From an uncultured Acetatifactor sp. (lineage in GTDB: Bacteria; Bacillota; Clostridia; Lachnospirales; Lachnospiraceae), in contig CAKRUB010000019.1 in the NCBI GenBank assembly GCA_934402375.1, positions 1 to 54,942 of the forward strand: 54,942 bases of DNA, written 5' to 3'. Below, in pieces: positions 51,551 to 53,470 of this stretch. The notes under the pieces were generated by a model that had not been told where the DNA came from, searched no databases, and saw nothing but the letters and a program-made list of their open reading frames with translations. How positions within the stretch are numbered: position 1 is the stretch's first letter; each line of letters starts with the position of its first letter. Position numbers and translations under genes: made by a program.

Positions 51551-53470
51551 TTATAAGTTCTGAACATCCTTTTTCAGATGCTCTGCCATATCATGCAGCT
51601 GCGTTGTCTGGGAAGAAATCTCCTCCGTGTTGGCAGCGATCGTCATGATCTTTTCCGTCATGGAATTTACCCTGTCAACGACTGTCTCAATGTACTCAAT
51701 TCCCGCCACAATCTTCGGCAGTATCTCCTCCGCCTTGTTGTTATTCATCGTGATCAGATCCTTCGTTGATTCCGACAGCTTCCGGATCTCCGTCGCCACG
51801 ATGGCAAAGCCTCTGCCCAGATCGCCGGCATGCGCCGCCTCGATGCTCGCATTTAAGGACAGCAGATTCGTCTGACCTGCAATCTCGGAAATGTCCTTGT
51901 TGCTCGCCTTATACACATCCATAAAGTCATTCATGATCTTAACGGACTGATTCAGCTTCTCGCAGAGCGCGGATATTTCTTCAATGCCCTGTGCAAGGTT
52001 TGTTGCCTCCCTCGCGGACGCCTCGTTGGCGGAATCCATCTCGCCGATATTTTCACTCAGCGTGATAAAGCTCTCCGTGATCTCGCTCAAAGCCTCCTGA
52101 TGTCTGGCTTCCTCCTGCTCTCGGGCGCGGATCTCCGCAATCTCCTGCGTCTCCTTCTCAGCCGTGTCTTTTAGATAGTGTACACAATTCTCCTTACAGT
52201 TCACATTGTTGTAGATGGCTCTTGCCATATCCTTACAGGAGGAGTAACCGCAGCTCTCGCAGTCAAGTACTCTCGCCTGCGGCGTTGTCTTATTCAACGA
52301 TACGAAGATGTCTGTAAGCTCTCTGTCCGAAGGCTCCTTCACCTCGACATGCTTATCCGTATACTCCCGCATGAAATCTCTGATGTCAAGCTGCCTGAAC
52401 GCATCCATCAGGTTCTTCAGCCTTTCCTCCGGTGCCAGCGTGCTGTCCCACGGACTCTGCGACCGTTTGCCGCGTCGTCCGCTCTTCCCGCTGCCCTGCA
52501 GCTTGGAATGGCGCATCTCCGCAAGGGTCAGCATAACATCGTCCGTCTGCCGTGACGGCTCGGTCGCCGTTCCATAGATACAGCCCCTTGCACAGTTTAA
52601 AATATCTACCATGAACGGCAGCTTCTTATGGGCTTTAATCCTCTCAGCATATTCCCTCAGAAATTTATAAGCCTCTGCCTCGCCCTCGACCTGCCGGACA
52701 ATCTTCTCTTTTCCGAGGAAGTGCTCCACATTTTCGCGCAGTCCGCCCGGCATCGGATAAAGGCTTCCGAGTCCGTACTCCAGTTCATCCTCGTAGGGCT
52801 CGCAGCTCCTGTAGCTGTCTCCGATATAACTCATCAGCTTTCGGAAGGTCACATTATACTCCACCATGCCGTGTGTATTCCGATCCGTAATTTCCAGCTT
52901 CTTTGCGATGCAGGGGCTGATAAACGCGATACTGTCAGAGACATGCATGTACTTCTTCATATAAACTGCCATACACATCATCGGGCTGTGGATCGGCACA
53001 AGTCTCGGTATCAGCTCTGGTATGTATTTTTCCACATAGTTCACAATCGCTGGACAGGGCTGGGAGATTCCCCTGGTAAAATTATTTTCCGTGATATATT
53101 TCAGATAGCCCCATGTCGTGATGTCCGCTCCAAAGGAAACGCTACAGATATGATTTACGCCTTTTTTCTTAAACAACCCCAGTATCTTCTTATATTCCAC
53201 CGGATAATTTGCAATGAATGCCGGCGCAATGATGACCGATATTTTCTTCCCTGCCGCAAGATCCTGAAAAAATCTTTCCGTGTCATCCTCATAGTCACGC
53301 GCATCGTGCTTGCAGGCGTCAAAGCAGGCCCCGCACGCAATACACATATCGCTGTCCACCGTAACCTTGCCTGTCTCTGTCGCGTTATTCGCCGTCAGCA
53401 CCGGACATGTCCTCACACACTTGTTACAGCCGGAACAAGCATCATTCGTAAAAATCAATCTGTTCGTCAT
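51551..53470 (-). CDS. soluble chemoreceptor with ferredoxin and FeFe-hydrogenase-like sensor
   Basis: 639 residues from ATG 53470 (GGGAGGAAAG upstream). Two 4Fe-4S ferredoxin sites start it (C12-C15-C18-C22, C43-C46-C49-C53). An FeFe-hydrogenase-like domain follows with four H-cluster ligands: SQPCP (C139), SPCIAKK (C187) and NCARGC (C293, C297). The catalytic enzymes' TSCCP is SQPCP here, so the proton-transfer Cys is absent. A further Cys cluster DCESCGYSSCKDMAR (about 400) may bind another Fe-S. The last 190 residues are a methyl-accepting domain with NLLSLNASIEAAHAGDLGRG. There is no TM or HAMP. It probably senses H2 or redox and signals to CheA; catalysis is unlikely. Confidence 0.92.
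   Translation of the reverse strand: MTNRLIFTNDACSGCNKCVRTCPVLTANNATETGKVTVDSDMCIACGACFDACKHDARDYEDDTERFFQDLAAGKKISVIIAPAFIANYPVEYKKILGLFKKKGVNHICSVSFGADITTWGYLKYITENNFTRGISQPCPAIVNYVEKYIPELIPRLVPIHSPMMCMAVYMKKYMHVSDSIAFISPCIAKKLEITDRNTHGMVEYNVTFRKLMSYIGDSYRSCEPYEDELEYGLGSLYPMPGGLRENVEHFLGKEKIVRQVEGEAEAYKFLREYAERIKAHKKLPFMVDILNCARGCIYGTATEPSRQTDDVMLTLAEMRHSKLQGSGKSGRRGKRSQSPWDSTLAPEERLKNLMDAFRQLDIRDFMREYTDKHVEVKEPSDRELTDIFVSLNKTTPQARVLDCESCGYSSCKDMARAIYNNVNCKENCVHYLKDTAEKETQEIAEIRAREQEEARHQEALSEITESFITLSENIGEMDSANEASAREATNLAQGIEEISALCEKLNQSVKIMNDFMDVYKASNKDISEIAGQTNLLSLNASIEAAHAGDLGRGFAIVATEIRKLSESTKDLITMNNNKAEEILPKIVAGIEYIETVVDRVNSMTEKIMTIAANTEEISSQTTQLHDMAEHLKKDVQNL

Follow-up and report, generated by a model that had tools for sequence, protein, structure and literature searches.

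What does a chemoreceptor monitor when its input half resembles an [FeFe]-hydrogenase, and does that half work as a sensor or as an enzyme? The question is raised by a gene of an uncultured gut bacterium, Acetatifactor sp. (Lachnospiraceae; contig CAKRUB010000019.1), of which we analyzed positions 1 to 54,942, hereafter the window. Occupying 51551..53470 of the minus strand, the gene reads from an ATG at 53470 to a stop at 51551 and encodes 639 residues that link two ferredoxin sites, a hydrogenase H-domain and a third iron-sulfur site to the signalling domain of a methyl-accepting chemotaxis protein (MCP). The explanation that we favor, and consider probable, is that it encodes a soluble chemoreceptor of the putative [FeFe] group C2, in which the redox state of a non-turnover Fe-S head would steer the MCP hairpin and CheA.

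The initial annotation had named these parts, and all of them were recovered at exact positions (coordinates on the minus strand, which the annotation had left unstated). Pfam assigned Fe_hyd_lg_C (111.5 bits, E 6.8e-32), several Fer4 models and MCPsignal PF00015 (77.1 bits, E 1.9e-21, over the cut-off of 34.6). The two [4Fe-4S] ferredoxin sites (residues 12-53, 53312..53437) are built from C12, C15, C18 and C22, and from C43, C46, C49 and C53. Within the H-domain (PF02906, residues 75-300, 52571..53248), the four H-cluster cysteines are carried by the motifs ISQPCP (L1, 53051..53068; C139), FISPCIAK (L2, 52901..52924; C187, with K190 retained) and DILNCARGC (L3, 52580..52606; C293 and C297), and they are invariant in a sensor-module alignment of 14 rows. 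The third site, C404/C407/C412/C429 (residues 404-429, 52184..52261), has the spacing Cx2Cx4Cx16C; PF04060 matches it in relatives and gave no match in the window copy. The MCP coiled-coil domain follows (residues 433-639, 51554..52174). No membrane segment was found in the protein (maximum 19-residue Kyte-Doolittle mean 1.18), in line with the cytoplasmic location that had been proposed. This architecture cannot be due to chance, since 6478 of 8000 candidate proteins scored match the sensor at E 0.001 or better, and PF02906 and PF00015 are both precomputed in 120/120 homologues among the matches listed. L1 reads ISQPCP in 119 of these 120 and ISQTCP in the other.

We then considered whether the head resembles a catalyst or a sensor. 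Alignment with groups A and B and the Ruminococcus albus HydS type puts P138, S185 and L291 at the CpI positions C299, M353 and M497 (assigned via motifs), so that the proton-transfer cysteine of TSCCP is indeed replaced, as the initial annotation had noted. Loss of this cysteine is a trait of sensory HydS proteins of groups C and D, and about 10% of the sensory sequences in HydDB have a proline in its place (PMC10055695). The group D protein TamHydS has A137, S191 and L291 at the three positions (PMC11803613, PMC8163306), two of which agree with the window protein. Its proton relay E252 is described as exclusive to group D (PMC10407848); mapped through that passage, with the TamHydS sequence itself outside the alignment, the E252 position corresponds to L244 (GGL, against GGV in group A). 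As P138 stands at the C299 position and L244 at the E252 position, both known proton paths are missing, which is more in keeping with a sensor than with a catalyst. Two N-terminal [4Fe-4S] motifs and the Cx2Cx4Cx16C spacing characterize groups C and D (PMC8163306), and the window protein has both.

The NCBIfam models of groups A and B were not passed (TIGR02512, 75.5 of 405.95; TIGR04105, 144.3 of 450). In a tree rooted on group A, the sensor rows group with R. albus HydS (98/96), away from the catalytic groups; a first tree had held the long branches L155 and L151, and the tree was rebuilt without both. On the strength of models, tree and motifs we rejected a catalytic enzyme, in agreement with the sensory role previously suggested. 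Membership of group D was likewise discarded because of the leucine at the E252 position, although the M353/M497 pattern is that of TamHydS. We conclude that the N-terminal half is, as judged from its sequence, a hydrogenase-type iron-sulfur sensor, kin to sensory and not to catalytic hydrogenases.

The output half contains the hairpin tip through which receptors bind CheA and CheW (EIAGQTNLLSLNASIEAAHAGDLGRGFAIVATEIRKLS, residues 529-566, 51773..51886). Close to the C-terminus, AANTEEISSQ (residues 612-621, 51608..51637) is near the methylation-site consensus, and a site of this type is present in 120/120 of the homologues listed. Head to head with the gene, at 53622-54248 on the plus strand, lies what appears to be a 208-residue remnant of a transmembrane chemoreceptor, in which most of an sCache_2 domain (Pfam) runs directly into an apparent MCP tail; the first membrane helix, HAMP and the hairpin tip are missing.

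The same sensor head is found on other outputs. A search of genome contigs recovered at least 80 loci. Of the 80 listed, 45 (all of at least 600 residues) have the MCP tip pattern and 15 an HD-GYP-like tail by sequence; the remaining loci are incomplete, or their tip was missed by the pattern. Output types were assigned by motif, with a Pfam check limited to three sets of 7, 9 and 3 proteins, the 9 sensors of the second set being run together with R. albus HydS. This check confirmed HD_5 in both HD-GYP types tested and identified GGDEF-EAL outputs (L113, L151), histidine kinase parts with a receiver (L135, L144, L147, L149, L150), an MCP with a receiver (MCP-REC, L129) and a head without output (L148). 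Since the kinase, EAL and HD-GYP rows are scattered among the MCP rows in both trees, inspection of the trees suggests that the sensor head has swapped its output more than once. Such exchange speaks for a head that signals a state and has no part in metabolism. With a soluble, modular head and exchangeable outputs, signalling by sensory [FeFe]-hydrogenases would become testable through CheA activity, which would replace weak hydrogenase turnover as the measure of the signal.

Is the MCP-type sensor coupled to chemotaxis? We surveyed 150 genomes of the R. faecis family, with 95% completeness requested, calling the sensor with the A1 profile (E 1e-60 or better) and CheA with PF02895; the PF02906 and PF02895 searches carry no completeness figures. 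The sensor was present in 33 genomes and CheA in 78. CheA was found in 32/33 sensor genomes versus 46/117 others (Fisher p 3.6e-10, an optimistic value because the surveyed genomes are related, although the contrast is large all the same), and CheR and flagellin were each found in 32/33. All 31 genomes with an MCP-type copy have both CheA and flagellin. The only sensor genome without CheA, CheR and flagellin is G109, whose above-threshold sensors are kinases. Among 50 genomes from the first set of loci, CheA was present in 48; the two exceptions are G038, whose sensor looks MCP-like from its terminal part (L048), and G010, with a sensor of the HD-GYP type (L072). Thus, a coupling to chemotaxis is well supported in the relatives. 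These counts come from the relatives' genomes, and for the host of the window we infer a Che pathway.

Our model builds on the parts, their conservation, the sensory kinship and the co-occurrence of CheA, CheR and flagellin in relatives, all demonstrated by sequence comparison; from there, we infer the cluster occupancy, the stimulus and the direction of the response. The redox state of the head would be set by hydrogen (H2) at the H-cluster, if one is assembled, and also by cytoplasmic electron carriers via the ferredoxin sites. A redox change would shift both the H-domain and the C-terminal [4Fe-4S] domain into another conformation. Because the latter runs directly into the coiled coil, its change should move the MCP hairpin and in this way modify CheA activity and flagellar behaviour. 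In TamHydS, the change in secondary structure under H2 is independent of reduction of the C-terminal cluster (PMC13104023), and for this reason a conformational relay seems more likely to us than a purely electronic one.

Several observations weigh against this model. The window tip, EAAHAGD, has a histidine where most relatives have arginine (R-E-R in 107/120 of the homologues listed), and the strict methylation-site consensus, present in 12/46 rows, is absent from the window copy. An internal stop interrupts the MCP-type copy of G139, one of 31 such copies, and the surveyed genomes are akin to each other, so that the Fisher values overstate independence. No conserved neighbour genes were found by BLAST clustering of 72 stretches (71 loci longer than 8 kb plus the window): the next most shared neighbour family occurs in only 14 of them, and on this count an operon partner gene was dismissed. 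No enrichment of SigD-type promoters was seen upstream in 132 stretches; a score of at least 10 was reached in 11 stretches versus a shuffled mean of 8.8, and a motility promoter of this type was dismissed as the best scores resembled those of shuffled stretches. Finally, the maturase HydG (TIGR03955), over cut-off in 73/150 genomes, occurs in 16/33 sensor genomes versus 57/117 others (Fisher p 1.0). The initial annotation had tied the Che output to hydrogen or redox state. Its chemotactic part is well supported in the relatives, while the lack of any association between HydG and the sensor leaves H2 a putative stimulus.

These maturase counts bear on the principal rival, in which the head would hold only [4Fe-4S] clusters, including a cubane at the H-site, and would never receive the 2Fe subcluster. 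The protein would then be a redox or O2 receptor, comparable in function to aerotaxis receptors, and no H2 sensor. We regard this as a real possibility, though less likely than the model above. HydF and HydE are each present in 21/33 sensor genomes; by NCBIfam models, 16 genomes have all three maturases, 11 have none and 6 have a partial set, among them R. faecis with HydE and HydF only. HydG was over cut-off in 22 of a further 48 sensor genomes, and is absent from Lachnospiraceae A4 (G007) and IMSAGC_011 (G008), whose record titles lack 'MAG', and from R. faecis M72 (G001). Pocket residues do not track the presence of the maturase, as rows identical to the window at 34 ligand and pocket positions make up similar shares with and without HydG (11/19 and 14/21, respectively). 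The residues P138 and L244 also count in favour of a cubane-only head. On the other hand, the pocket cysteines are retained in 40/40 rows and K190 in 39/40, and the lack of HydE, HydF and HydG may mean that maturation takes an unrecognised route or that the models overlook the genes. We first took HydG as strong evidence against H2 sensing, but a control with catalytic motifs weakened that argument. Another PF02906 protein, scoring much higher, is present in all 33 sensor genomes, and when such a locus was scanned in 10 of the 11 that have no maturase, 9 gave a row, 7 with TSCCP and 2 with TSCSP. Catalytic-type hydrogenases hence occur in maturase-less genomes, and either these genomes have another maturation route, or the models overlook something, or both proteins work without the 2Fe subcluster. 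We raise tentatively, as a possibility short of an expectation, that the 'chemotactic hydrogenases' of gut Lachnospiraceae are no hydrogenases in many of their hosts, with a cubane-only pocket or one filled independently of HydG. If the hosts truly lack H-cluster maturases, a class surveyed as an H2-sensing hydrogenase would have been misread, and those genomes' catalytic-type hydrogenases would call for an explanation too.

Three further readings seem less probable to us. The MCP part might work outside chemotaxis, for example as the partner of a dedicated CheA controlling another process; many source genomes do have two CheA matches, and the motility-type promoter signal is lacking, but flagellin accompanies the MCP-type copy in all surveyed genomes that have one, and the sensor is also present in genomes with a single CheA match, R. 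faecis (G001) being an example, which makes this unlikely. It is far less credible that the protein is a genuine, if slow, hydrogenase with an MCP tail that only localises it to the chemoreceptor array. The characterised sensory hydrogenases TmHydS and TamHydS turn over H2, far below group A activity (PMC10055695, PMC11803613); here, however, neither known proton path is present, the group A and B models remain far under cut-off, and outputs are swapped among signalling domains. Least of all do we expect the gene to be decaying or without function in this host. Its neighbour looks like an MCP remnant and the tip has changed from arginine to histidine, but the frame is full-length with all ligands intact, and relatives 94% and 82% identical to the window protein also have the tip histidine. 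A redox-governed soluble chemoreceptor remains the explanation that we prefer.

Gene content around the maturases varied among the genomes. G062, G068, G074, G076, G089, G111, G133, G149, G165, G166 and G175 have no HydE, HydF or HydG by NCBIfam models and retain other PF02906 proteins, often with catalytic motifs. In R. faecis M72, which has two further hydrogenases, one over the group B cut-off, HydE adjoins HydF (L184, 7171-9487). The HydG-less genome G108 contains a same-strand nitrogenase-like/Hyp/Hyd cluster (L196 5120-11147 and L185 63-9590), in the order NifH-like, two nitrogenase-component-like genes (BLAST to L187), HypF, HypD, HypE, a 524-residue gene that matched no family, a PF00148 gene, HydF and HydE; this cluster might provide the H-cluster with CO and CN by a route independent of HydG. 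In G148, also HydG-less, a NifH-like and two PF00148 genes lie just upstream of HydF (L187, 1917-7654). Nitrogenase-like neighbours thus occur in 2/5 HydF-bearing HydG-less genomes, one of the other three having HydF on a 7-kb contig, and none were found around HydF in four HydG-bearing genomes (L192-L195). A published survey reports strict-motif HydG in only three of its acetogens and names looser candidates in others; its discarded hits were mainly of groups 4f and C2, validation having needed a known cluster motif (PMC9431212). In G009, one hydrogenase is fused to rubredoxin-like and rubrerythrin domains (L082, Pfam), and L093 closely resembles it at the C-terminus.

In the window itself, a Shine-Dalgarno-like GGGAGG (53480..53485, minus strand, by eye) precedes the ATG of the sensor gene, and the plus strand of 51551..53470 is interrupted by several stops. 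The gene does not look foreign, since its guanine-cytosine content (0.505) is close to that of the window (0.506). Nearby on the minus strand are genes of a spoIIIA-like sporulation operon (44406-49644, translations judged by eye) and an open frame of collagen-like G-x-x repeats that runs past the window end (54501-54941).

How does the protein compare with known systems? Its MCP part matches the 3g6b/3g67 receptor and the aerotaxis receptor 31cj by sequence. The sensor domains of aerotaxis receptors and of the 3g6b/3g67 receptor are not known to be related to hydrogenases. Among sensory hydrogenases, R. albus 7 HydS (group C, phosphatase-linked; L153, 5989-7665) shares the two ferredoxin sites, the H-domain and Cx2Cx4Cx16C, but is 24.7% identical to the window protein, retains CC at L1 (SSCCH) and has no MCP fusion; its gene adjoins a SpoIIE phosphatase gene, near adhE. 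TamHydS of Thermoanaerobacter mathranii (group D, M2e) resembles the window protein in the serine at M353, the leucine at M497, the C-terminal four-cysteine site and the absence of a PAS domain (PMC8163306, PMC11803613). It differs in having alanine instead of proline at the C299 position and the relay E252 instead of leucine, and the passages on it in these two papers name no output domain, where the window protein has an MCP. TmHydS of Thermotoga maritima (group C, M2f) has the layout of a sensory protein, including an additional cluster at the C-terminus, and, set apart by description only, a PAS domain and Ala131 (PMC10055695); Pfam found no PAS domain, the mark of group C sensu M2f, in the window protein at E 0.001.

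The closest counterpart is [FeFe] group C2 of HydDB, 'Chemotactic (putative)', which is tied to MCPs, for which H2 sensing via MCPs was proposed, and which was named in 2016 with an 'undetermined role' (PMC5037454). As in C2, an FeFe-hydrogenase domain is linked to an MCP in the window protein and in the 120 homologues listed, and the sensor rows stand with group C, separate from groups A and B; no difference was found in this comparison, made against the published class description. We regard the window protein as a further member of this putative, already catalogued class. By title and opening abstract, none of the matches listed from the open-licence PMC literature dealt with C2 function or with HD-GYP- or EAL-fused [FeFe] sensors. 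C2 has been counted in rumen data (PMC10811737) and met once in Hydrogenedentota (PMC11406978), and sensory hydrogenases are said to need better characterisation (PMC12578642); these passages add occurrence and not function, so that the protein belongs to a known class of putative function. Set against the passages on C2 and sensory hydrogenases, in which they do not figure, the swapped outputs, the association with CheA and the independence from HydG look new.
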